Assembly (NCBI GenBank): GCA_945910005.1
Contig: OX246743.1
Coordinates: forward strand, 13,870,587 to 13,934,586
Direction: 5' to 3'
DNA length: 64,000 nucleotides
Source: Isoperla grammatica
Lineage: Eukaryota; Arthropoda; Insecta; Plecoptera; Perlodidae
In this document: positions 18,660 through 54,799 of the stretch, one piece after another
Position numbering within the stretch: the stretch's first letter is position 1
How the letters are laid out: each line of letters begins with the position of its first letter
The notes under the pieces: generated by a model
The model's input: only the letters and a program-made list of their open reading frames with translations
Database searches by the model: none
What the model was told of the DNA's origin: nothing
Program-made: the position numbers and the translations under genes

Positions 18660-18688
18660 TTTTTTACAACTACACCATGAATGTAATG

Positions 18689-18727
<39 letters not shown>

Positions 18728-19111: not shown

Positions 19112-21881
19112 TCACTCACAGAGGTAGTCTTTTAAAGAGTAAAAGCTGTTGGATAAAAGAAATGTTTTCAGGTTGTGTTTGAAGGAGGGCAGGGTGGGAG
19201 ATGTTTTAATGAGATTGGGGAGCTTATTGTAGAGGGTGGATGCAAGGTATTCAGGACCTTGAGAAAAAAGAGTCAGGTTGTGGGAAGGTCTGTGGACCTG
19301 GAGACTGGCTCTGGTGTTATGGGAGTGTATTGATGTGTTAAGAGGGAAGAGATTTGGGTTGGTGCGGACAAATATTGCAGCGAATTGGATCAGGGTGCAT
19401 GCCAGCGTAAGTATTCCCAGATTCTTGAAGAGATCTCTGCAAGAATGTTTCCTGGATACACCAGCAATGATACGCACAACTCTCTTTTGGAGGATAAATA
19501 TTCTATTGGCATGGTGAGAGGCTCCCCAAAAAAGCAGACCATAGGATAAGTGGGAGTGGACATGGGCAAAGTAAACTAGCAAAAGGACAGGGGGGTGCAC
19601 TATCTGTTTAAGCTTTCTAATCAAGTAGCACCCAGATAAGATTTTGTTAGCGACATGATTTACGTGGCTGGACCAGTCAAGATTTTCATTTAGAAACAGG
19701 CCGAGGACTTTTACTGTATGAGAGCGAGGGATTATATCAGAGTTAAGGCGTACGAGGGGGCTTACTGGAGGAATTTTGTAGTGAGTATGAAAGTAGAGAT
19801 AGACAGTTTTGGAGCGCGAGATAGTAAGTTTATTCATGTAGCAGTATGAGGACATTTTATCAACATGTGAGTTTATTAAGGGGGGAAGGTCCTGAAAAGG
19901 TTGATGATTTGGGAAGGGTTAAGAGGTGGCTCGAGTCGTCCGCATATTGGATGTGAGTACCCTCGTCTAAGGAGGCAGACTGATCGTTGACATACAGGAT
20001 ATATGCTAACCGATCAGATAAGAAAGAGGAAATCCAGCTAAGAGCTGCACCCCGAATACCTAGGGTGTCCAGCTTTGTTAGGAGAATAGTGTGGTCAATA
20101 GTGTCGAAGGCCTTGGTCATGTCATAGAACATTCCTATGGTTTGGTCCCCTTTGTCCAGGGCAGAGTAAAGAGGGGTAAGAAAACTAAAGAGAGCACTTG
20201 TGGTGGATTTGTTTTTTAAGAAACCATGCTGGCTAGGGGAAAGAATGTTGTGATAATTTAGAAAAGATAGTAGTCTGTCATGTATGATGTATTCAAATAT
20301 TTTGGAGAAGGAGGACAGAAGGGAGATAGGTCGATAATTATTCATCTCTGACTTCTTCCCCTTCTGTTTAAAAATGGGAATTATTTTCGCTGTCTTCAGT
20401 TTGGAGGGAAAAATGCCATCAGAAAAGGATTCGTTTATTATGTAAGCCAGAGGGCCAGAGATCAAGTCGGTGCATTTTGATAGAAGAGACCCGGGAACTT
20501 CGTCAAGCCCGCATGAATGTTTCGAGCCGAGTTTTTTAGTAACCATTGCTACTTCATTAGGTGTAGTGGGATAGAGAAAAATAGTTGCGCCTAGTACAGA
20601 TCGGGTTGTTTTAAGAAGAGGGGGGGAATAAGTTGGCACCTTGGAACTTCCACTATTGCATGAGTCGATAAAGAAATTGTTAAATAGCTCACACTGAGAT
20701 GAAGGGTCGACTACGTCCTGTCCATTAATGGTGATTGACAGTTTCGAGTTGGGTTGGGGAGCTGTGGAATGTGCTTTGATCATTGCCCAGGTTGCCTTGG
20801 AGGTGTTCCTAGATGAAGAAATTTTGGTATCATTGTAATCTAGTTTGGCACTTCGTATTTTTTTAGCATGTGACTTTTTTAACTCTCGGTATTTTTGTTT
20901 AAGTGAAGGGTTATTAGAAGACTTTAATTCAACGTGAAGGGACCGCAAGATCTGAGCTTCGGCTCTGATTTCCTTTGAAATCCAGGAATTTGCTTTAGTA
21001 TTGGTTGCAGGACAAGATTTAAGGGGAAAAGCAGTATTGAAATGGTGTAGAAAAGTGGAGAGGAATCTTGAGAAGAGCTGGTCAGCATTGCCTGGTAGTC
21101 TTAGGGAGTGCCATGTTTCTTTACTAAGCAACGATAGAAAATAAGCTGTGTTGCCGGGACTAAATGAACGCTTGGTGACACGGATTTTAGGGGGAGGGAG
21201 CAGGTTGGTCAGGGAAAGGTTCAGAGTGATGAGATGGTGATCAGACAGACCAGGGTCAGTTGAACTAGAAGAAAACAGAGAGGGGTCAATGGTTGTGAAA
21301 ATGTTGTCTATTAGGGAGCTGCTAGCAACAGTGACTCGGGTTGGGGTGGATATGGTTTCATGAATATTGAAGGTGTGTACTAAGTCAAGAAGTTTAGATC
21401 GAGATGGGGATTGAGTAAGGAGGTCTACATTATGATCACTGCATAATACTATTTCCGCATTTGGGAATTTCTTGGTTAAATAAATTAGCACCTCGTCAAG
21501 CTTGGTCAGGAAGGTGTTAAGGTTGCCTAGGGGAGATCGATAAATGGACAGAATGATAAAGTGCTGGTCTGAAAACCGCCAGGACCCCCCAACACACTCG
21601 AAATCTTTTACGATGCAGTAAGACTGGATTTCATGAATAGGGTTTATATTGAGGTGGGGTTTAGCCAGTATTCCAACTCCACCGTGGATGAATGAAGAGC
21701 GACAGAAAATGTCAACATTTACATAGTTGGCAATACAAAAAGAGTTGATTTCGTGAGGAGTAAGCCAGTGCTCTGATAGACAGAATATATCCGGAGAGAG
21801 GCGCTTGGTTAAAAGTTCCACTTCCTCAATTTTGTTGCGGATTGAGCAAATGTTGAGGGATGCTATGATTGCATTGATATG
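19112..21881 (-). pseudogene. LINE 1 ORF2: APE endonuclease and reverse transcriptase, internally deleted
   Basis: Open from about 21881 (INAIIASLNICSIRNK) to 19860, then continuing after a frameshift near 19890 to a stop at 19112. Endonuclease signs: SEHW, IYRSP, SDHNVD in the place of GDFN, SDHH. RT signs: NYRPISLLS, GFLKNKSTT, YDMTKAFDTIDH, YADD. About 30 residues that should hold the PQG motif are missing: the sequence jumps from SSFLSDR to LAYILYVND. The C-terminal part (YGLLFWGAS, LQKRVVRII, NLPNLIK) is typical. ORF2 normally nicks the target and reverse-transcribes; this copy cannot be functional because of the deletion and frameshift. Group: CR1/L2-like, not resolved further. Confidence 0.9.
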
Positions 21882-21928
21882 CTGTGTGGGAGGGAGAAAG
21901 CGAGGGGAGGAGGTGGGGTGGTTCCTAG

Positions 21929-24334
21929 CTAGGGGGGAGGTGTTTGAAGAGGCATTATTGGAAAATTTCTTGGATTGGTGGCAAGAGTGATTTGAGTGTT
22001 GGGGCGCCTGGACCGGGTTTGAATAGGATCACGAGAGAACTGATGAGAGAGGTTGATATTTAGGATGCTACCACTCGCCACCACAGAAGCAGTAGGGCCT
22101 ACAATACATGGTGGAGGCTGACCACCCGGGGCCGCAGCCATCGGGATGGTCGTCGAACTCGCAGCGATGACAGGTTGTGCAGAAGTTTGCCCGCTGGCGA
22201 TCATGGTGGAGGCGGCAGGCATGTTGGTGTTGTTCACAGCGTTGGTTGAGAAAACCGAGGCCACGGCAGCCTCAGGACTAGGCAAAGGGGCGCCGAGAGG
22301 CTCCACGTCCAGGGTTGCTGTCACCGTAGTCGCGATCCCGGTAGCTGGGCTTGGCGATAAGTCTCCGAGGTGCCCTGTGATGGGGGTTGTAGAGATCACC
22401 GGTGCCGCGGAATCCACATCAGCTACATCAGTTACCGCATCCGTTAGTGACACAGTGGCTGCCACTGGGCTCAGCGTTGGGTCACTTGGAGGCTCAATTT
22501 CTTGGGCCATGTACTCCCTTGTTTCAACTGGAGATATGGCATGGGCAGGTGTGTGGGGCGGGGGCATGCTGGTCACTCCGGTCACGCTGGGACAGTCAGC
22601 TGCGGTTTCTGCTCTATTCCCTTCTGCGGATTGTTCGGCAGAGATGGACTCTTGAGTAGGCCAGGGTGCGTTGACAGTTGGGCACCGGGTTAGTTCATAT
22701 AGGGGCTCTTCTTGGACCGCAGGCTCGATTGCATCGTCTGGGAATATGGCATGGGCAGATGGGTTGATCAGGGGCATGCTGGTCACGCTGGGACAGTCAG
22801 CTGCGGTTGCTGCTCTATTCCCTTCGGCGGATTGTTCGGCAGAGATGGACTCTTGAGTAGGCCTAGGTGTGTTGACAGCTAGACACAGTGTTAGTTCACT
22901 TAGAGGCTCCTCTTCCTGGACTATGGGCTCCATTGCATCATCTGGGGATATGGCATGGGCAGATGGGTGGATCAGGGGCATGCTGGTCTCCCTGGGACAG
23001 CCAGCTGCGGTTGTTCCACCATTTCCTGCTGCAGGTTGATCGGTGGAGATAGACTCTGGAGTTGGCCTAGGTGTGATAGTGGTAGTAGGTAGCGAGCACA
23101 CATCAATAAGCAACTGTGTGTTTTTGAAGGTTTGTAACAGAAGACCTCTTATTAGGTTCCAACTGAGACCATCTAGGCCACAGCCAATTTTTGGCATGGC
23201 TATGTGGTGAATGTTGTAGAATTTGCACAGTTGTTTCAGATTATGAAGAGCGGTAGCAATGGATGCTAAGGTAGGCTTGCCATTGGAATGAGCTTTTGTA
23301 ATTAGGCAGCATATCAGTCGACCTTTCGAATGTAGTAGTGCAATGCTACCCACCTGCTTCCGTTGAGATTTCAGGTACTCCAAGCCACCGAACTTAGTTT
23401 TGAAATCTCTAGCGATTCCTCGACTTAGCCGCAGATCTTGTGCAACACAGTGGATTAGGGGTACATTGTTGGGAGTAGCAAAGAGGTCGCGGTTGTGTTC
23501 AACGAGTGAGAGACCGTTGCGTTGGCCTATTTGATTGTCGAGAGGATTGATGACAAGAGGGACAGGAGGCCGGCTGGACATTGGCATGTGGGAGAACGTG
23601 GGCTTCGACGTAGACTCGTAGAAGAGTGTTGGCCTAGCCGACAGGCTGGTGTTAGATAGCTTAATGGGAGTTGAATTTGTGCCAGAGGGAGTCTCAGTAG
23701 CTATTATGTGGAGAGAGTTTGGTGTGGTGGGCCGAGGTTTCGTCGCAAGTGCATCGCTAATCATAGATGCCAGTGTGGATTTGCCCTGCTCATTGAGATG
23801 CAGGCCATGTTTCGTAAACAGATTTCTCTCCAGTGTGGATATGTCAATGAAGCGGCAGTTAGGCTGGGAGTTGACAAGATCCTGTAGGCTGTAGTTGACA
23901 GCATCGACCATACTGGAGAGGTTTGGCAAATCGTGTCTGCGAGGCAGGCCGACTACGGTGAGATTACCGGTGCACGGTGCTCTGATCACTCGAGACAAGG
24001 AGGGGATGATTTGCTTAGTTGCTCCTGGAAGGTTGTTCGTACCAGCCATAATAATGACCTCGTCCATGGAAGTGAGGTTCCGCAACTGTGGCGGTATCTC
24101 CCGAACAACCTCTTGCATGCTAGCATTGGGCTTGAAGATACTATGTATCTCATGGTGGAGGGCTTTATTACGCCGGCGTAGGTTTTGGGCAATTAACCCA
24201 CCAAGTTGGCGGCCATGAGAATCAGCAAAGATTAACACTTTGCTGTTAACAGGGGGGTTGTTTGACTTGGGAACGGGCATAGGCCGAGGAGGTAGGCCTT
24301 TGTCTATTGCACATAAATAATGTGTCTCGGCCAT
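21929..24334 (-). CDS. LINE 1 ORF1: SGNH hydrolase plus TARG1-like macrodomain
   Basis: 801 codons, one open frame starting MAETHYLCAIDKG. Residues ~31-195 form an SGNH/GDSL hydrolase: FADSHG (Ser39), MAGTNN (98-101), HGLHLNEQGK (177-185; the Asp usual before Gly is absent but His is present). Residues ~275-413 form a macrodomain resembling TARG1/OARD1: RDLF (282-285), HCVAQDLRLSRGIARDF (295-311), LICCLITK with Lys347, and MPKIGCGLDGLSW with Asp388. These Lys and Asp fall at the places of TARG1 Lys84 and Asp125, the residues that remove ADP-ribose from glutamate. Residues ~422-625 hold three ~68-residue P/S/T-rich repeats; the rest is low complexity. SGNH domains are known in CR1-group ORF1; I know of no described macrodomain there. 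ORF2 lies directly downstream. Confidence 0.88.
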   Translation of the reverse strand: MAETHYLCAIDKGLPPRPMPVPKSNNPPVNSKVLIFADSHGRQLGGLIAQNLRRRNKALHHEIHSIFKPNASMQEVVREIPPQLRNLTSMDEVIIMAGTNNLPGATKQIIPSLSRVIRAPCTGNLTVVGLPRRHDLPNLSSMVDAVNYSLQDLVNSQPNCRFIDISTLERNLFTKHGLHLNEQGKSTLASMISDALATKPRPTTPNSLHIIATETPSGTNSTPIKLSNTSLSARPTLFYESTSKPTFSHMPMSSRPPVPLVINPLDNQIGQRNGLSLVEHNRDLFATPNNVPLIHCVAQDLRLSRGIARDFKTKFGGLEYLKSQRKQVGSIALLHSKGRLICCLITKAHSNGKPTLASIATALHNLKQLCKFYNIHHIAMPKIGCGLDGLSWNLIRGLLLQTFKNTQLLIDVCSLPTTTITPRPTPESISTDQPAAGNGGTTAAGCPRETSMPLIHPSAHAISPDDAMEPIVQEEEPLSELTLCLAVNTPRPTQESISAEQSAEGNRAATAADCPSVTSMPLINPSAHAIFPDDAIEPAVQEEPLYELTRCPTVNAPWPTQESISAEQSAEGNRAETAADCPSVTGVTSMPPPHTPAHAISPVETREYMAQEIEPPSDPTLSPVAATVSLTDAVTDVADVDSAAPVISTTPITGHLGDLSPSPATGIATTVTATLDVEPLGAPLPSPEAAVASVFSTNAVNNTNMPAASTMIASGQTSAQPVIAASSTTIPMAAAPGGQPPPCIVGPTASVVASGSILNINLSHQFSRDPIQTRSRRPNTQITLATNPRNFPIMPLQTPPP

Positions 24335-24667
24335 AGTTTAGGTTTAGGCCTACTTGTCGAGGCTTGGATGGTCTTGATGTCATACTAGCCCTAAGCCTAT
24401 GCCTAGTCCTAGTGTCTGAGACTTGAGTAATGTCTGGATAGTTAGCTTCTCTCCTTAGAGGATCAAGGCCTAGGGCTAGGCCAGCTATCAGTTGCTGTGG
24501 GTTGGGGTCTTCGTGCTTGGTGGCTGGTACTGAGGCCAGGCTAGGACCTACGTTGTGTTGTTGAATTACATTAATGTTTGTAAAATTGCAACGTGCATGT
24601 CCAAGTTAATTTATTTCTTGAATTGTGATTTCACGATCCAACTTTTAATATTACCAATTGGCAGTGG
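24335..24667. other. LINE 1 5' flank, no gene seen
   Basis: The first ~150 bp carry TAGGCCTA-type motifs and may be LINE 5' UTR. The rest is AT-rich and runs into the satellite. Confidence 0.5.
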
Positions 24668-26043
24668 ATGTAATTCTACCATATAATTCGTCGAATTACC
24701 ACAGCGTTGATAAATTTACAATTCTGATGTATATGTAAAGAAGCAAACGTTTTTGCGATTGTAACATTCTAGTTGTAACATAACAAATATACAGTATATG
24801 TAATTCTACCATATAATTCGTCGAATTACCACAGCGTTGATAAATTTACAATTCTGATGTATATGTAAAGTAGCAAACTTTTTTGCGATTGTAACATTCT
24901 GGTTGTAACATAACAAATATACAGTAGATGTAATTCTACCATATAATTCGTCGAATTACCACAGCGTTGATAAATTTACAATTCTGATGTCTATGTAAAG
25001 AAGCAAACGTTTTTGCGATTGTAACATTCTGGTTGTAACATAACAAATATACAGTAGATGTAATTCTACCATATAATTCGTCGAATTACCACAGCGTTGA
25101 TAAATTTACAATTCTGATGTATATGTAAAGAAGCAAACGTTTTTGCGATTGTAACATTCTGGTTGTAACATAACAAATATACAGTAGATGTAATTCTACC
25201 ATATAATTCGTCGAATTACCACAGCGTTGATAAATTTACAATTCTGATGTATATGTAAAGAAGCAAACGTTTTTGCGATTGTAACATTCTGGTTGTAACA
25301 TAACAAATATACAGTAGATGTAATTCTACCATATAATTCGTCGAATTACCACAGCGTTGATAAATTTACAATTCTGATGTATATGTAAAGAAGCAAACGT
25401 TTTTGCGATTGTAACATTCTGGTTGTAACATAACAAATATACAGTAGATGTAATTCGACCATATAATTCGTCGAATTACCACAGCGTTGATAAATTTACA
25501 ATTCTGATGTATATGTAAAGAAGCAAACGTTTTTGCGATTGTAACATTCTGGTTGTAACATAACAAATATACAGTAGATGTAATTCTACCATATAATTCG
25601 TCGAATTACCACAGCGTTGATAATTTTACAATTCTGATGTATATATAAAGAAGCAAACGTTTTTGCGATTGTAACATTCTGGTTGTAACATAACAAATAT
25701 ACAGTAGATGTAATTCTACCATATAATTCGTCGAATTACCACAGCGTTGATAAATTTACAATTCTGATGTATATGTAAAGAAGCAAACGTTTTTGCGATT
25801 GTAACATTCTGGTTGTAACATAACAAATATACAGTAGATGTAATTCTACCATATAATTCGTCGAATTACCACAGCGTTGATAAATTTACAATTCTGATGT
25901 ATATGTAAAGAAGCAAACGTTTTTGCGATTGTAACATTCTGGTTGTAACATAACAAATATACAGTAGATGTAATTCTACCATATAATTCGTCGAATTACC
26001 ACAGCGTTGATAAATTTACAATTCTGATGTATATGTAAAGTAT
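24668..26043. repeat. 130-bp satellite, about 10.5 units
   Basis: Unit starts ATGTAATTCTACCATATAAT at 24668, 24798, 24928 and so on, with very few differences between units. The last unit ends at GCAAACGTTTTTG, where the 60-bp array takes over. Confidence 0.96.
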
Positions 26044-26049
26044 AGCAAA

Positions 26050-26700
26050 CGTTTTTGTCAGCAATCTGAAACAGAGAAGTTTTCTACATTATATCAAGTT
26101 AAATCGCAGTGATAACGTCAGCAATCTGAAACAGAAAAGTTTTGTATATTATATCAAGTTTAATCGCAGTGATAGCGCCAGCAATCTGAAACAGAGGAGT
26201 TTTGTATATTATATCAAGTTTAATCGCAGTGATAATGTCAGCAATCTGAAACAGAAAAGTTTTGTATATTATATCAAGTTTCATCGCAGTGATAGCGCCA
26301 GCAATCTGAAACAGAGAAGTTTTGTATATTATATCAAGTTTAATCGCAGTGATAGCGCCAGCAATCTGAAACAGAGAAGTTTTGTATATTATATCAAGTT
26401 TAATCGCAATGATAGCGCCAGCAATCTGAAACAGAGAAGTTTTGTATATTATATCAAGTTTAATCGCAGTGATAGCGCCAGCAATCTGAAACAGAGAAGT
26501 TTTGTATATTTTATCAAGTTTAATCGCAATGATAGCGCCAGCAATCTGAAACAGAGAAGTTTTGTATAGTATATCAAGTTAAATCGCAGTGATAACGTCA
26601 GCAAGTTGAAACAGAGAAGTTTTGTATATTATATCAAGTTGAATCGCAGTGATAACGTCAGCAATCTGAAACAGAGAAGTTGTATTAGGTGCGTAATATG
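26050..26700. repeat. 60-bp satellite, about 10.7 units
   Basis: Unit GTCAGCAATCTGAAACAGAG...AATCGCAGTGATAAC, period 60, differing at a few positions per unit. It decays after 26700. Since 60 is a multiple of 3 it reads open on the minus strand, which is not evidence of coding. From 26701 to 27330 nothing else is recognised. Confidence 0.95.
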
Positions 26701-47926: not shown

Positions 47927-50900
47927 CTACAGTCTACAAGTCCAGTCTCTTAGGTGGTTTGATCTCTCTTCCGCTTCTGGTTGAGTAGACCAAAGGACCG
48001 GCATTGGTAACGACAGGACTCTTCGCCACCTCTTCTGGTTCGTCAGGGGGTAGGCTACACTGCCGCTATCCTCCAACGGGAAACTTTCGGTCGCATTTCC
48101 TGGGGGGATCTCGTCGACTGGTTGCAGATGAAAACGGTTCCTGCGGATGATGCCCTCCGGAGTCGTAACTTGATAAGAACGTGGATTCTTGTCGACCTGA
48201 GTGACTTCGCCGTACCGCTTCATATCCGTTACCCAGACAGAATCTCGTAGTTGAAGAGGCTTCAACTCAGATGAGCGATGGCGTCTGTCATAGTTGGTTT
48301 TCTGTTTGGTTTTAGTAACCTTATCTTTTTTCCGAAACGGTTGATCTAATGCGCTGTTGGGGCGCAAATGTTCTGATGCTATGGGCAGGGTTGTTCGCAA
48401 CTTACGACCCATCAGCAATTTAGATGGACTGTATCCACTTTCCAAGGGAGTACTACGATAAGATAAAAGTCCTAAACATGGGTCAGCTGACTTCTTAAGA
48501 ATACTTTTGACAGTTTTTACGGCCCTCTTTGCTTCTCCGTTTGAACGAGGATACTTCGGGCTGCTCGTGGTATGCTGAAATCCATATGCATTAGCAAACG
48601 TACGAAATCCCTCAGATTTAAACTGTGGGCCATTGTCTGAGACTACTTCCTCTGGAATGCCAAACCTAGCAAAGCTGGACTTTATTTTTCTGATGACGTA
48701 CTCACTAGTAGTAGACGGTAAGAGTAGCACTTCAGGGAATCTGGAGTAGTAATCAACAATGATAAGGTACGTAGCTCCATTGAAATGAAACAAATCCATA
48801 GCTACCTTTTTCCATGCTCGATCGGGAAGCGTAGATGGTTTCATCGGTTCGAGGTGGTTGCTTCTCTCCTCCACACAGCCTAAGCACTTGGAGACCATAT
48901 CTTTGATGTGTTGACCGATCGAAGGCCACCACACAGAACTACGAGCACGCTCTCGGCATTTATTGATTCCGAGGTGTCCTTCGTGTATTCTGTTCAAAAT
49001 ATCTTTTCGCATACTCACTGGAATAAGGAGGCGTTTATCCTTCATGAGTAGGTCCTGCTGGATTGTCAGGTTCCCCTTCTCTTGATAATACGGTATGCAA
49101 TCGGGTACAACGTTTTCTTTCATTGGCCATCCTTTCTCGATATACTCACGGAGTAACTTGCAGGTGTCATCTACTTGTTGCGCTTGTTTCAAGGTTAAAC
49201 GCTTGTCTGTTGCTGGAAGCTCCTGAAGAACGTGATCAACGAACACCTCGATGTCGCGTTGGAACTCCAATGCGTCGACTGAACCATCACTAACTGGTTC
49301 TCTAGATAACGTATCCGCAGTATACAATTCTTTTCCGGGTACATGAGAGATCGTGAATGAGAAACGCATGAGCCTCAATCGCATTCGTAGAATTCTAGGC
49401 GATAACTCGTGTAACGATTTCTTTCCCATGATTGGCACCAGGGGTAGGTGATCAGTGCGAACATGAAACTGTTTTCCTAAAAGGAAGTTTTCGAACTTTT
49501 CACATGCCCACACAATACCTAGAGCCTCCTTTTCTATCTGGGCATATCTCTGTTCAGTCGGAGAGAGAGCTCTCGAAGCATATGCTACCGGACGCCAGAT
49601 GCCTGCCTTGTCGCTTTGCTCCATGATGGCTCCCAAACCAAATGAGGATGCATCAGTAGTTAATCGAATAGGTTGATTAACGTCGTAAAACATGAGAGTG
49701 GGTGTCGTGGACAACTTTGTCTTGATACGCTGGAAAGCTTCTTCTTGTGGACGACCCCACAGAAAGGAACTTGATTTATTTAACAACTCTCGAATGGGTT
49801 TTGTTATATCAGCTAAATTAGGTACGAATATGAGCATTTGGTTAACCATACCCATTAATCTTCGCACCCCGGAAACATCCGTTGGGTTCTTCATGTCCGA
49901 GATTGCTTTGATTTTCTCCGGATCTGGTCTTAGACCACCTTCGCCCAGGATGTAACCCAGGAATGTTAAGGTCTCCACGCTGAACTGGCATTTCGATACG
50001 TTCAAGGTGATATTCCCTTTGACGAGTCTCTCTAGTACCAGATTGAGCCTCTCGTCGTGTTCCTGTTGATCTTTGCCATATATTAAAATATCGTCCATAT
50101 GACAGAGAACCCCTTTTAAGCCCGAGAGTAGTGCCGACATCTTTCTTTGAAAAACTTCCGGCGCGGAAGTAATACCAAACGGTAGTCTTTTGAAACAATA
50201 CCGCCCTTCGGGGGTGATGAATGTCGTTAATCTTGATGACTGTTCGGCTAGTTTTATTTGCCAAAATCCACTATTTGCATCAAGTTTGGTGAATACTTTG
50301 GCCTCACCTAGGTGTCCCAATGCTTCGTCGATTTTAGGAAGCAAGTGTCGTTCCCGCTGGACGCTCTTGTTCAGGTGCGTCAAATCTACACAGATTCTTA
50401 CGGACCCATCGCTTTTTGGTACGACCACCATGCCCGCGCACCATGTTGTTGGTTCATCCACTTTGGAAATTACCTCCGCTTCTTCCATCTTCCTTAATTC
50501 TTCACGGACCTTTTGTATCAGTGGAATCGCTACGCGGCGAGGAGTTGATATGGAGAACGGTTCTGCATCCGGCTTTAGTTGTATTTCGTACTCGCCTTCC
50601 ATTTGGCCTAGCCCTTTAAAAAGCTGTGGGAACTTGCATTTGACAATGTCTGGTGTTGTCAAACTTTTCTTGAGTAGGCTTACTTCCTCAATTCTACCGA
50701 TCAAGTTAAGGCCTCGAATCGCTGGTCTACCCAGTAGTGCTTTATTGAGCTTGCGAACGACAAAAATATCCTGTGTAATCTTTTGGTCTTGATACTTTAG
50801 GGTCGCTTGGAATTGCCCTTTGACATCTAATACTGATTGTCCTGGTCCAATAAGACGCTTGGTTGGTGGACTGAGTTTTTGTTCGGGAAACTTCGTGCTA

Positions 50901-51715
50901 TACTGACCTTCCGAGATAACGGTGACATCCGCTCCCGTGTCTATCTTGAAACTGAGAGGAACTTGTTCGACCATGATAGTCGCTACCCAAGGATCATTTC
51001 CGCCACTCTCTATCATCCCGAGGAATGCTTCTTCCAGCTGGGCTTCCACTTCTCCCACCCGCGACGTTGATGATTTAGACTTCGCACCAGAACGACCCTG
51101 CTTTTCGTAATGTCCGACGAAATCACAGGCTCGACTTTTGACTTCCCGTGCTGGACAGTCTTTGAACCTGTACCAAGATCTACCACATCGTCCGCACTTG
51201 TCCTTTTTATTTGAATTTGCTGGACCTTGTTTTGGTTTATTACCTTTTTCCGGCTTGGATTTAGATCGGACTGCATCAACATGCGTAGTTCCCTCTTCCA
51301 AAGACCGAAGTACTTTTTGTTGGCCTTTTATTTCTTCGGAGCTTCTTACCTTGTCTATTGCCTTTTGGAGCGTAAGGTCGGAGTCCATTTTCAATGTTTC
51401 TGATAACTTCAAATCCCTTAGGCCTACTACTAATCTATCCCTTATCAATTCATCTTGAAGGTCACCATAACCACAATGTTTCACTAGAGCATACAGAGCA
51501 GTAATGAATGATGCAACAGGTTCTCCTTCCTCTTGGACGCGTTTGTGAAATTTGGCGCGCTCAAAAATGATGTTCCTTCTTTTGATAAAATGAGAATCGA
51601 ACTTATCAATGACAAGGGAATAGTTCTCTTCTTCCTCCTTACTCAATTTGAAGGATAAGAGTATATCCTCAGCTTCGTCTCCCATACAATAAATTAGATT
51701 GTGTTGTTGTATTGT
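47927..51715 (-). CDS. gag-pol: Gypsy D gag-pol, main part
   Basis: A frame of about 1260 codons; at its right end QHNLIYCMGDEAEDI is the continuation of gag across the LINE insert. Order: gag capsid remainder; a degenerate zinc-binding region (CGRCGRSWYRFKDC); protease FKIDTGADVTVIS; RT with LPFGITSAPEVFQRK and HMDD; RNase H TTDASSFGLGAI; integrase zinc finger (HEGHLGINKC..KCLGC) and core (MDLFHF, VVSDNGPQF, NGEAKRAV); C-terminal SYQVTTPEG. Together with near-identical LTRs and a 5-bp duplication this is a young copy, inactivated only by the LINE in gag. Confidence 0.95.
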   Translation of the reverse strand, partial: TIQQHNLIYCMGDEAEDILLSFKLSKEEEENYSLVIDKFDSHFIKRRNIIFERAKFHKRVQEEGEPVASFITALYALVKHCGYGDLQDELIRDRLVVGLRDLKLSETLKMDSDLTLQKAIDKVRSSEEIKGQQKVLRSLEEGTTHVDAVRSKSKPEKGNKPKQGPANSNKKDKCGRCGRSWYRFKDCPAREVKSRACDFVGHYEKQGRSGAKSKSSTSRVGEVEAQLEEAFLGMIESGGNDPWVATIMVEQVPLSFKIDTGADVTVISEGQYSTKFPEQKLSPPTKRLIGPGQSVLDVKGQFQATLKYQDQKITQDIFVVRKLNKALLGRPAIRGLNLIGRIEEVSLLKKSLTTPDIVKCKFPQLFKGLGQMEGEYEIQLKPDAEPFSISTPRRVAIPLIQKVREELRKMEEAEVISKVDEPTTWCAGMVVVPKSDGSVRICVDLTHLNKSVQRERHLLPKIDEALGHLGEAKVFTKLDANSGFWQIKLAEQSSRLTTFITPEGRYCFKRLPFGITSAPEVFQRKMSALLSGLKGVLCHMDDILIYGKDQQEHDERLNLVLERLVKGNITLNVSKCQFSVETLTFLGYILGEGGLRPDPEKIKAISDMKNPTDVSGVRRLMGMVNQMLIFVPNLADITKPIRELLNKSSSFLWGRPQEEAFQRIKTKLSTTPTLMFYDVNQPIRLTTDASSFGLGAIMEQSDKAGIWRPVAYASRALSPTEQRYAQIEKEALGIVWACEKFENFLLGKQFHVRTDHLPLVPIMGKKSLHELSPRILRMRLRLMRFSFTISHVPGKELYTADTLSREPVSDGSVDALEFQRDIEVFVDHVLQELPATDKRLTLKQAQQVDDTCKLLREYIEKGWPMKENVVPDCIPYYQEKGNLTIQQDLLMKDKRLLIPVSMRKDILNRIHEGHLGINKCRERARSSVWWPSIGQHIKDMVSKCLGCVEERSNHLEPMKPSTLPDRAWKKVAMDLFHFNGATYLIIVDYYSRFPEVLLLPSTTSEYVIRKIKSSFARFGIPEEVVSDNGPQFKSEGFRTFANAYGFQHTTSSPKYPRSNGEAKRAVKTVKSILKKSADPCLGLLSYRSTPLESGYSPSKLLMGRKLRTTLPIASEHLRPNSALDQPFRKKDKVTKTKQKTNYDRRHRSSELKPLQLRDSVWVTDMKRYGEVTQVDKNPRSYQVTTPEGIIRRNRFHLQPVDEIPPGNATESFPLEDSGSVAYPLTNQKRWRRVLSLPMPVLWSTQPEAEERSNHLRDWTCRL

Positions 51716-51925: not shown

Positions 51926-54799
51926 TTATATATCACGCTGTTCTCTTACCCAGCTCGTACATTTGTGCTTGAACATTTCAGGATTTTTTGCCAGCTTAAT
52001 ACTAAAAGGAAGTTTATCAAACATAATGGCCCCTGAGTTGAAAATAGAGCTAAGCCATTTTTTACTGTTACAATTAATACGAAAAACTTTTCCCTCCTTG
52101 GCATATCTAGTGTTACAGTTATGAACTAGGGAGACATTAGTTAACTTATTATCCATATATCCAGGCATTAGACCATTTTTTACCTTAAAAATAAACACTA
52201 ATACTAACAGAAAAATGGTTTCTTTCACATTTAACCAATCAAGCCGTTGAAGCATTTCATTGATCGGTACCTCCCGATCACATCTAAGAACACACCTCAT
52301 TCCTTTATTTTGTAGCACCTGGAGTTTTCCAATATCATTTTTACATGCTTGATAAAGAATGGTTGCTCCATATTCAAAATGAGGCTTAATAATGGAATTA
52401 TACACCATTAACCTAGTCCAACGTGACAGTTTACCACTTATACGTCTAAGAAAACCAATCTTCCTACCTATTTTTTTGATCATACAATTGACATGTTCCT
52501 TAAAATCGAGATTATTGTCTATAATAATTCCTAAGTATTTGAAATCCCTTACAATCTCTATAATGGAGTTATCAATTACAATCGGTTTCCTTAACGGGCT
52601 ATCCCAAGCCTCCTTACATATTTTTCCATATGCTAAAAACATTCCCTTAGTCTTAGCAATATTCAATTTAAGTTTATTTAATGCTAACCAATTTGCTAAT
52701 CTTACCAGCTCCTCATTTATCAATATAATTAACTCTTTGCAATCATATCCACTAATGGATAGCACCATATCATCAGCATACATATTTAAAAACGCAATCT
52801 TGCACACCTTGTTCACATCATTTAGATAAATTATAAACAATAAAGGTCCCAAAATTGATCCCTGAGGTACTCCATTTGTACTATCCCTAATTTTGGATTC
52901 CTCCATACCACACCTTACCCTCTGCTTTCTTTCAGTGAGAAAATCTTTAATCCATGCAATAGCTTTCCCTTCGACTCCATACATATATTTAAGTTTATCT
53001 AACAGCCTAGCAATGTTAACAGTCTCGAAAGCTCTTTTCATATCCAGAAAAATAATAATAGTTGATAACTTGGCATCTTTATCAGCCAACCATTTACTCA
53101 GTACATTTTGAATTGCCGACTCACATGAATAGTGTTTGCGGAATCCTGATTGGTTTACATCTATAAGATTATTTATTTCCATATACTCATACAATTGATC
53201 ATGCACAACTATTTCAAATAATTTGTCCAAAATCGATAGCATGTTTATCGGTCTGAAATCAGATATTTTAATTGAACCCCTAACCTTACTTATTGGTTTA
53301 ATCACAGCTACTTTCAGTCTGCTAGGAAAAATACCTTTCCTGAAAGATGAGTTAAGGAGATCTAGCACCTTAAATTTGACTACCGAATACGAATCCATGA
53401 ATAACCTGTAAGTGATTCCATCAATAGATCCCTTCTTATTTTTAATTTTCCTTATCATACAATCCAATTCGCCTATCGTTATTTCTCTAAATTCTGTTAA
53501 AGTACACGTCTCATTTCTATTTAAGTCTTCCAACTTACTCTTATTCAACTCTTCATCATCACAGTCTCTGATACTTACTATAATATCCTCAATGCTTTGA
53601 AGAAAGTAATCGTTGAAAGCATTCGCCATGTTTTTAGTGTTCGAAATCTCAATCCCATCAACGTTAACCACTACACTAGGTTCACTATTATTTTTACCTG
53701 TACCTGTACTAATAACTTCTTTCAGTGTTTTCCACAAAAGCTGTGTATCATGTTTAACCTTATCTATTTTCATATGGTAGTATTCCCTTTCATTTTTTCT
53801 AATTAATGACTTTATCAAACTCCTGTCGGTTTTATACCTTTCCCACGCTTCCATGGTACCTTGCACCTTAGCCTGCTTGTATTTATAGTTTTTTTCTCTT
53901 ATCAATTTCCTTATTTCCCCGTTTATCCACGGTTTATTAGACTGAAATTCCTTGATTTCTTTTTTTACAACCTGTTTATTTTTACACTCAATAATATTAA
54001 CCATCAATCTATCAGTCATACAATTAACATCACTCCGGTGAAGTTCCCAGTCACATACGGCCAAATCCGATTTAAATTTGAACTCATCGTAACTACGCCA
54101 ATCTTCAATAATTTTATTAGAATACCTGTTTTTACTTATACTACAATAAGGCCTACTGTTTACATCTATTTTAAGTGTTTCATGGTCGGAGACTTTCAAA
54201 TCATTAACAACCTGCGCAGACACACTTCTCTTATCGTTCGTTATAACTAGGTCTATGGTGGTATTAGACACTCTTGTCACACATGTAGGTTCATTAACAA
54301 TTTGTTTCATCCCATTCATTTCTATAATGTCTTTTAGCTGTTTGGAGTCATTTACACATTTCCAATTAATATTAAAATCACCCACATACAGAACTTTACA
54401 TGAAAGGCCAGCGTCCGCGTCCTCTTCCAGAAAAGTTTCGAAATCTTGTAAAAAATCCTTTCGACTTCCATTTGGAGAACGATAAATTACATTAAGAAGC
54501 ACAGACTCTTCACCAAAACCAATCATCACTCCAAGTACCCAGTAATTTCCATCACATGTCTTTCTTCTTATTACACTGACTTTAACACCTTTGAGCACAT
54601 AAATAATTACGCCACCAGTATTTCTACTGTTAGTATTACACCTTATAAGATTAAAACCTCCCAATTTAATTTCTTCATCATTTATTTCCTCCGTAACATG
54701 CGTTTCCGTCACACATATTACAGCAGGTGAACATTTAATTACCATTTCCCCAATCTCCGATATGTTACGTACAAGACTTTGAGCATTTACTAGTACCAT
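51926..54799 (-). CDS. LINE 2 ORF2: APE endonuclease and reverse transcriptase (intact)
   Basis: 957 codons. Endonuclease: LVNAQSLVRN, CVTETHV, VIYRSPNGSR, VGDFNINW, SDHETL. RT: SDFRPINMLSILDKLFE, QSGFRKHYSCESA, FLDMKRAFETV, GVPQGSILGPLLFIIYLNDV and MYADDMVLSI. C-terminal: HFEYGATILYQ, LQVLQNKGMRC. No RNase H is seen. The layout fits Jockey-like or related LINEs; the frame is uninterrupted. It is unrelated at subfamily level to LINE 1. Confidence 0.94.
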   Translation of the reverse strand: MVLVNAQSLVRNISEIGEMVIKCSPAVICVTETHVTEEINDEEIKLGGFNLIRCNTNSRNTGGVIIYVLKGVKVSVIRRKTCDGNYWVLGVMIGFGEESVLLNVIYRSPNGSRKDFLQDFETFLEEDADAGLSCKVLYVGDFNINWKCVNDSKQLKDIIEMNGMKQIVNEPTCVTRVSNTTIDLVITNDKRSVSAQVVNDLKVSDHETLKIDVNSRPYCSISKNRYSNKIIEDWRSYDEFKFKSDLAVCDWELHRSDVNCMTDRLMVNIIECKNKQVVKKEIKEFQSNKPWINGEIRKLIREKNYKYKQAKVQGTMEAWERYKTDRSLIKSLIRKNEREYYHMKIDKVKHDTQLLWKTLKEVISTGTGKNNSEPSVVVNVDGIEISNTKNMANAFNDYFLQSIEDIIVSIRDCDDEELNKSKLEDLNRNETCTLTEFREITIGELDCMIRKIKNKKGSIDGITYRLFMDSYSVVKFKVLDLLNSSFRKGIFPSRLKVAVIKPISKVRGSIKISDFRPINMLSILDKLFEIVVHDQLYEYMEINNLIDVNQSGFRKHYSCESAIQNVLSKWLADKDAKLSTIIIFLDMKRAFETVNIARLLDKLKYMYGVEGKAIAWIKDFLTERKQRVRCGMEESKIRDSTNGVPQGSILGPLLFIIYLNDVNKVCKIAFLNMYADDMVLSISGYDCKELIILINEELVRLANWLALNKLKLNIAKTKGMFLAYGKICKEAWDSPLRKPIVIDNSIIEIVRDFKYLGIIIDNNLDFKEHVNCMIKKIGRKIGFLRRISGKLSRWTRLMVYNSIIKPHFEYGATILYQACKNDIGKLQVLQNKGMRCVLRCDREVPINEMLQRLDWLNVKETIFLLVLVFIFKVKNGLMPGYMDNKLTNVSLVHNCNTRYAKEGKVFRINCNSKKWLSSIFNSGAIMFDKLPFSIKLAKNPEMFKHKCTSWVREQRDI

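Follow-up and report, generated by a model that had tools for sequence, protein, structure and literature searches.

TARG1-like macrodomains in LINE ORF1 proteins and Gypsy Pol of the stonefly Isoperla grammatica: candidate erasers of ADP-ribosylation

We analysed a stretch of 64,000 nucleotides from the stonefly Isoperla grammatica (assembly GCA_945910005.1, contig OX246743.1, positions 13,870,587 to 13,934,586 of the forward strand), referred to below as the window, together with related retroelements of the same genome. The window contains a long interspersed nuclear element (LINE) whose first open reading frame (ORF1; 21929..24334, minus strand, in window positions) has 801 codons and encodes an SGNH (esterase-like) domain, a macrodomain and a repeat tail rich in Pro, Ser and Thr; this protein is the focal ORF1. 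Divergent related LINEs likewise encode ORF1 proteins that combine an SGNH domain with a macrodomain of the TARG1 kind, with the Lys/Asp catalytic pair of that enzyme in place. A second LINE ORF1 architecture and the Pol of Ty3/Gypsy elements contain such a macrodomain too, and we cautiously favour a role in removing ADP-ribose added by the host.

The macrodomain of the focal ORF1 spans residues 273-414 (23093..23518, minus strand). A first-pass annotation, made from the letters of the sequence, had proposed a macrodomain like that of TARG1/OARD1 with Lys347 and Asp388 as its catalytic residues, and sequence and structure comparisons bear this out. A phmmer search against five human TARG1 sequences of the PDB gave E-values of 1.5e-27 to 3.5e-27 over residues 273-414. 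Both TARG1 catalytic motifs lie within this alignment, and the pair is aligned as well: Lys347 (codon 23294..23296, minus strand) with TARG1 Lys84, and Asp388 (codon 23171..23173, minus strand) with TARG1 Asp125. In a structure search, TARG1 ranked first for the predicted fold of the focal macrodomain, at 1.2 Å, the model being folded with five sequences and the comparison being made at the level of the fold. The Pfam Macro profile scored just above its cut-off (22.8 bits versus 22, E 9.2e-5). Assignment to the TARG1 (OARD1/C6orf130) kind is thus strongly supported, and a MacroD-type or viral macrodomain is disfavoured because TARG1 ranks ahead in both the sequence and the fold searches. TARG1 is reported to hydrolyse O-acyl-ADP-ribose as well as ADP-ribose that is ester-linked to proteins or attached to nucleic-acid ends; catalysis employs Lys84 together with an acidic partner, and DarG does not keep this pair (PMC7050489). 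Since the element macrodomains retain the Lys/Asp pair, we infer that they work as ADP-ribosyl hydrolases that would use Lys and Asp in the manner of TARG1.

The genome (874.3 Mb in 603 contigs) was searched with the focal ORF1, yielding at least 59 matches, of which 10 have 93-100% identity, 5 have 74-90% and 44 have 29-59%; some of these belong to one insertion, and the counts are lower bounds. Among the matches listed, 20 distant loci of approximately 9.9 kb each (L009-L028) were examined. The macrodomain is kept in 27 of the 28 loci L001-L028, divergent LINEs included, the remaining one (L008) beginning after the macrodomain, while L006 and L007 represent a single insertion. The first-pass annotation had named three outcomes that would speak against its proposal. 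Two of them did not occur: the match to macrodomains is highly significant, and a single-copy accident is rejected, as the domain is retained in further copies belonging to divergent LINEs. For the third, catalytic residues lying outside the pocket, the comparison by alignment agrees with the placement in TARG1. We refer to these SGNH-macrodomain elements as class A. Their catalytic Lys is present in 27/27 loci and the Asp in 26/27, L010 being broken before the Asp. The common layout is an N-terminal region followed by SGNH, the macrodomain and Pro/Ser/Thr repeats, and then ORF2; a profile of eight class A ORF1s matches TARG1 at 1.5e-54. ORF2 matches lie on the same strand, 3' of the macrodomain, in 18 of the 20 distant loci (L011-L028; 27-88% identity per aligned piece), and half of these 18 have a single open frame of 883-1089 amino acids (aa) after ORF1. 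In the other two distant loci, L009 and L010, the SGNH-macrodomain frames are 56-77% like the focal one, depending on the piece, and in L009 a piece of ORF2 lies on the opposite strand.

A second genome search used a macrodomain of the DNA ligase III type as query and gave at least 150 matches (150 scored out of 300 candidates), 19 of which contain an internal stop according to the match table. Among the elements examined are LINEs with the reverse order, in which the macrodomain precedes SGNH (class B). For example, the locus L037 (G000 C1:9158500-9164500) carries an ORF1 of 547 aa arranged as PHD finger, macrodomain and SGNH, followed by an ORF2 of 959 aa with endonuclease and reverse transcriptase; its PHD finger reaches 24.1 bits versus the Pfam cut-off of 24 and matches the Pygopus PHD at 1.4e-8 by phmmer. 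The PHD finger of L034 is weaker (22.2 versus 24 bits), and its SGNH part was read by eye only. No PHD finger was seen in L030 and the similar L032, and L036 has a long repeat tail. At least 17 matches of the ligase III-type query, the L037 locus included, have the same score (33%, 92.2-92.3 bits), and their open frames measure 331-554 aa; because of this shared score and the open frames, the L037 type looks recently active.

In class C, the host element is Ty3/Gypsy and the macrodomain is part of Pol, lying between retropepsin and reverse transcriptase in L035 (G000 C1:66522000-66529000), whose gag and pol frames are long and open, and in L038 (G000 C8:26302500-26309000). L040 (G000 C5:82588500-82593000) is in pieces, with the macrodomain in a broken frame context. 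Pfam was run on L035 alone of this class. The top PDB sequence match is TARG1 for L035 (3.6e-38), L037 (1.5e-34), L036 (4.3e-28) and L030 (1.1e-42), and none of 23 sequences drawn from all classes (17 from elements, 4 host-type and 2 unassigned) lacks either catalytic residue. It should be noted that Pfam Macro detects these domains poorly: it matched 5 of 8 trimmed ORF1s at E up to 0.1; with full-length ORF1s it matched 3 of 6 at E up to 0.5, one of these above the cut-off, and it gave no match to the L035 Pol at 0.01. Macrodomains of this kind may therefore go unlabelled in annotation, because the profile often misses them.

Protein-database searches with the focal ORF1, with its residues 25-420 and with the eight-member alignment found no SGNH-macrodomain ORF1 outside this genome, two of the three queries having scored only the approximately 8,000 candidates that share most words. 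P0010, a Gypsy Pol that comes from another source, carries its TARG1-like macrodomain behind the integrase, unlike the Gypsy elements of this genome, and P0011 is an ORF of 259 aa with a macrodomain, obtained by protein-database search. The TARG1-like macrodomain also stands at the C-terminus of DNA ligase III-like proteins (P0002, P0004 of Tigriopus and P0009). At L039:1489-1860 there is a TARG1-like frame of 124 aa with CTACAG before it and GAGGTAAGA near its end; AG directly precedes the conserved GDLF, and GTAAGA stands near the end of the frame. This frame probably represents one exon of the TARG1 gene of the host. Separately, P0007 is an SGNH protein with a stretch of the C48 (Ulp1-like) protease type upstream (Pfam PF02902), and P0003 is similar by eye; these are another SGNH fusion, perhaps also of mobile elements.

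The SGNH domain of the focal ORF1 occupies residues ~31-182 (23789..24244, minus strand). Its blocks, read by the first-pass annotation, are present as Ser39 of DSHG, Asn100 of GTN and His179 of HGLHLN, and His176 stands at the position of the Asp of DxxH esterases. The focal protein alone matches Pfam Lipase_GDSL_2 below the cut-off (E 0.0072), and the predicted model of the region matches SGNH hydrolases. The profile of eight class A ORF1s matches the LINE ORF1 esterase 4c1b at 1.3e-8. Single sequences match it at 7.9e-9 (L037), 8.4e-5 (L030) and only 0.16 (L013 of class A), and 4c1b is absent among the PDB sequence matches of the focal ORF1 up to E 1. Across the eight aligned class A ORF1s, D-S, G-T-N and G-L-H are invariant, and the DxxH Asp is replaced in all of them, by Gly in seven and by His in one; it is retained in L030, L034 and L037, with His in L036. 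Because of this replacement, the class A domain probably has the SGNH fold without being a full esterase.

Synonymous and nonsynonymous rates argue for selection on the macrodomain. For 11 class A sequences, the ratio of nonsynonymous to synonymous rates (omega, codon maximum likelihood) over the macrodomain, a comparison that the first-pass annotation had suggested, is 0.116. Over seven sequences omega is 0.068 for the macrodomain and 0.040 for SGNH, at mean identities of 54% and 47%, respectively. Pairwise, 12 of 153 pairs have dS between 0.02 and 2, with omega of 0.15-0.40. The omega of ~0.07-0.12 indicates, as a rough estimate, purifying selection on the macrodomain.

The history of the domain is less simple than a single capture by LINEs. 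In the macrodomain tree the deep branches are weakly supported. The approximately unbiased (AU) test rejects a clade of classes A and B that excludes the rest (p 0.014), disfavouring a capture restricted to LINEs. It leaves standing a clade that unites the 17 element macrodomains (p 0.22) and separate clades of class A (0.55), of class B (0.12) and of the two Gypsy domains (0.45); these p-values are indicative, the groups having been partly chosen after viewing a tree. The AU results are therefore compatible both with one capture followed by spread and with several captures. The ORF2 tree (12 sequences, without reference reverse transcriptases, the focal ORF2 being represented by its first 653 residues only) joins the class A LINEs (90/93), with L030 and L036 (98/96) beside them and L037 on a long branch. 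In the same tree L034, whose ORF1 has the macrodomain, is joined with the window LINE at 51926-54799, which lacks it (100/98). The focal and L018 ORF2s form a sister pair (100/100), and a grouping of the macrodomains of these two elements is rejected (p 0.019), which disfavours vertical inheritance of the focal ORF1 with its ORF2. The focal SGNH domain is of the DSHGR kind, unlike the ISDSM kind of L018. This conflict between ORF1 and ORF2 fits the reticulate ORF1 evolution described for CR1 and L2 LINEs (PMC4120745). Spliced host mRNA probably supplied the macrodomain on at least one occasion, after which ORF1 exchange and recombination would have carried it from element to element.

What might a retroelement do with such a domain? 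LINE ORF1 protein packs LINE RNA. A macrodomain on this protein, or on Pol, would hold the enzyme on the ribonucleoprotein (RNP) of the element itself. Its substrates could be ADP-ribose placed by host ADP-ribosyltransferases on the ORF1 and ORF2 proteins, and further ADP-ribose on RNA, on silencing factors or on the ends of DNA nicked at the target; its removal would relieve a restriction of retroelements based on ADP-ribosylation. We consider it somewhat more probable than its opposite that the TARG1-like hydrolase of these elements erases host-added ADP-ribose on RNP, nucleic-acid ends or chromatin. This reading gains weight because omega is well below 1, and because the same domain occurs in two LINE ORF1 architectures and in Gypsy Pol. 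Host modification of this type has been reported to act on a retroelement, as SIRT6 mono-ADP-ribosylates KAP1 and silences L1 (PMC4695847). Tentatively, and with somewhat less than even confidence, we extend this to the proposal that host ADP-ribosylation is a general weapon against retroelements and that unrelated retroelements took the TARG1 eraser, from the host or from each other, as a counter-defence built into RNP or Pol, a eukaryotic transposon counterpart of viral macrodomains.

Several observations weigh against a counter-defence by erasure. ZAP/PARP13 is reported to restrict L1 mainly via its zinc fingers, its PARP-like domain being called defective, and overexpression of PARP1 gave no inhibition of L1 (PMC4441479). 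The focal copy is itself defective, with a broken ORF2 and a shortened ORF1, and its structure model rests on five sequences, the catalytic pair being located by fold-level and sequence alignment. Near the catalytic Asp, L009 has CCGLD instead of GCGLD, and L014 and L026 have GTGCD. No ORF2 lies downstream of the macrodomain in L009 and L010 (2/20 distant loci), which may be truncated, non-autonomous or host-adopted. Synonymous sites are near saturation between lineages, and the omega values are therefore rough, though below 1. Finally, the window contains another LINE and a Gypsy element without a detectable macrodomain, so retrotransposition in general does not require the domain.

Other uses of the domain have to be weighed against the same data. 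The macrodomain could be a reader instead of an eraser, binding ADP-ribosylated chromatin or PARP-marked breaks and thereby tethering the RNP to integration sites, with catalysis incidental. Target-primed reverse transcription works at a nick, which is a PARP-activating lesion, and some of the ORF1s also bear a PHD finger, a chromatin-reading fold; moreover, the ALC1-like class includes both readers and erasers (PMC7050489). A reader would have no need of the Lys/Asp pair, yet the pair is kept (27/27 and 26/27 in class A, 23/23 over all classes), and we regard this explanation as unlikely. Rather unlikely, too, is that the enzyme is dedicated to clearing ADP-ribose from the phosphate ends of RNA or DNA ahead of reverse transcription, a special case of the eraser with another substrate. 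TARG1 does act on ADP-ribose phosphoesters at nucleic-acid termini (PMC7050489). The domain occurs in both LINEs and long terminal repeat (LTR) elements, whose common ground is RNA and cDNA intermediates and not the mechanism of integration; this, too, agrees with end cleaning. On the other side stands DarG: its substrate is nucleic acid and it lacks the TARG1 dyad, which the element domains have.

The neighbouring SGNH domain suggests a further reading, in which ORF1 combines two hydrolases of acyl esters, an O-acetyl-ADP-ribose deacylase and an SGNH deacylase, directed for instance at sirtuin silencing or at membranes. TARG1, which is OARD1, acts on O-acyl-ADP-ribose (PMC7050489), the ORF1 esterase of ZfL2-1 is active and binds phospholipids (PMC3905857), and SGNH and macrodomain co-occur in LINE ORF1s in either order. 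Against this pairing, Gly (7) or His (1) at the DxxH Asp of eight class A ORF1s implies that the esterase may be weak or dead, and the L035 Gypsy Pol has the macrodomain without an SGNH match; we find such a pairing improbable. That the domain is a piece of host TARG1 hitchhiking without function would agree with a focal copy dead in ORF2 and with LINEs and Gypsy elements that do without the domain, but it is hardly credible given omega of 0.07-0.12 over divergent sequences, a conserved dyad and at least three architectures.

As for the window copy itself, the coordinates and length that the first-pass annotation gave for its ORF1 are correct, and ORF1 lies on the minus strand. Its remark that the frame is open over 801 codons calls for one amendment: the protein is shortened at its N-terminus relative to that of the family. 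The open frame of the copy L003 has 1061 aa and extends ~200 residues further upstream (~175 from the first ATG), and a remnant of this N-terminal region lies in another frame at 24335..24550 (minus strand), similarity to L003 stopping at 24550; the window ORF of 801 aa is therefore a shortened family protein. The C-terminal tail, rich in Pro, Ser, Thr and Ala (21929..23074, minus strand), includes a 204-bp tandem repeat (22580-23073, 2.4 copies) and ends in an FSRDPI.TRS.RPN block common to several relatives.

The element belongs to the APE-type LINEs, an ORF2 with endonuclease and reverse transcriptase adjoining ORF1. The first open stretch of ORF2 (19860..21821, minus strand, 653 aa) covers the endonuclease and part of the reverse transcriptase; the second, in another frame (19112..19855, minus strand, 247 aa), matches the ORF2 of relatives and has no Pfam match. 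The annotation had called this ORF2 dead, and for the window copy we agree: by eye, its reverse transcriptase carries a frameshift and is missing the VPQGS region, so the copy is presumably unable to move on its own. The probable 3' end (18684..18727, minus strand) has AATAAAT and then an (ATT)n tail, seen as a TAA array on the plus strand. A near-identical copy, L002, is 99.8% identical from window position 20432 to 25817, where L002 ends. Upstream of ORF1 are two adjoining tandem arrays with no strand assigned, one of 130 bp (24662..26057, 10.7 copies, common to L002 up to 25817) and one of 60 bp (26059-26681, 10.4 copies); possibly they are a 5' untranslated region, perhaps with promoter repeats, or a duplicated flank. 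Four macrodomain queries found nothing better than E 0.15 in the window outside the focal ORF, and no macrodomain is detectable in the second LINE ORF2 (51926-54799, minus strand) or in the Gypsy Pol (47927-51685, minus strand).

We found no description of a macrodomain in retrotransposons in the open-licence literature. Macrodomains are unmentioned in the main text of an ORF1 classification (PMC4120745) and of a paper on gene capture by crocodilian endogenous retroviruses (PMC4299795); in the available text of PMC6338049 'macro' occurs only within 'macrophage', PMC3905857 has 'macro' a single time, and the text of a TARG1 survey (PMC4245714) has no mention of transposons. SGNH and PHD domains are already known in LINE ORF1s (PMC4120745, PMC3905857), and so is the capture of accessory domains; what appears to be new is the TARG1-type domain, a telling cargo, as accessory enzymes in retroelements point to the needs or the opponents of the element. 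That LINEs and LTR elements have conserved an eraser of the TARG1 type in three or more architectures suggests that retrotransposition repeatedly meets ADP-ribosylation, as an obstacle or as a target mark, and it links PARP and sirtuin biology with transposon control by a testable route.

Among known systems, the bdelloid rotifers offer a case of the same enzyme in unrelated retroelement classes, with accessory GDSL esterase and DEDDy exonuclease ORFs common to LTR and non-LTR elements (PMC5408684), the available text mentioning neither a macrodomain nor ADP-ribosylation. Esterase-type (type IV) ORF1s of CR1/L2 LINEs, such as that of ZfL2-1 (4c1b), likewise have SGNH upstream of an APE-type ORF2; the ZfL2-1 esterase keeps the triad Asp (D279/H282 of DxxH; PMC3905857), in contrast to class A ORF1s. 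Viral macrodomains (MacroD-type, in corona-, alphaviruses and others) are also ADP-ribose-handling domains of a mobile agent, and a survey describes TARG1-like homologues from numerous viral genomes, few of these homologues retaining every residue that TARG1 activity requires (PMC4245714). The ligase III-like proteins resemble the element proteins in having a dyad-bearing TARG1-like macrodomain built into a larger protein that works on nucleic acid; however, they are not retroelement proteins, and they group with human TARG1 in the tree (86/80). Compared with TARG1/OARD1/C6orf130 itself, which is a small host protein, the element domain is part of a retroelement protein, beside SGNH or within Gypsy Pol, and is encoded in one open frame present in many copies.

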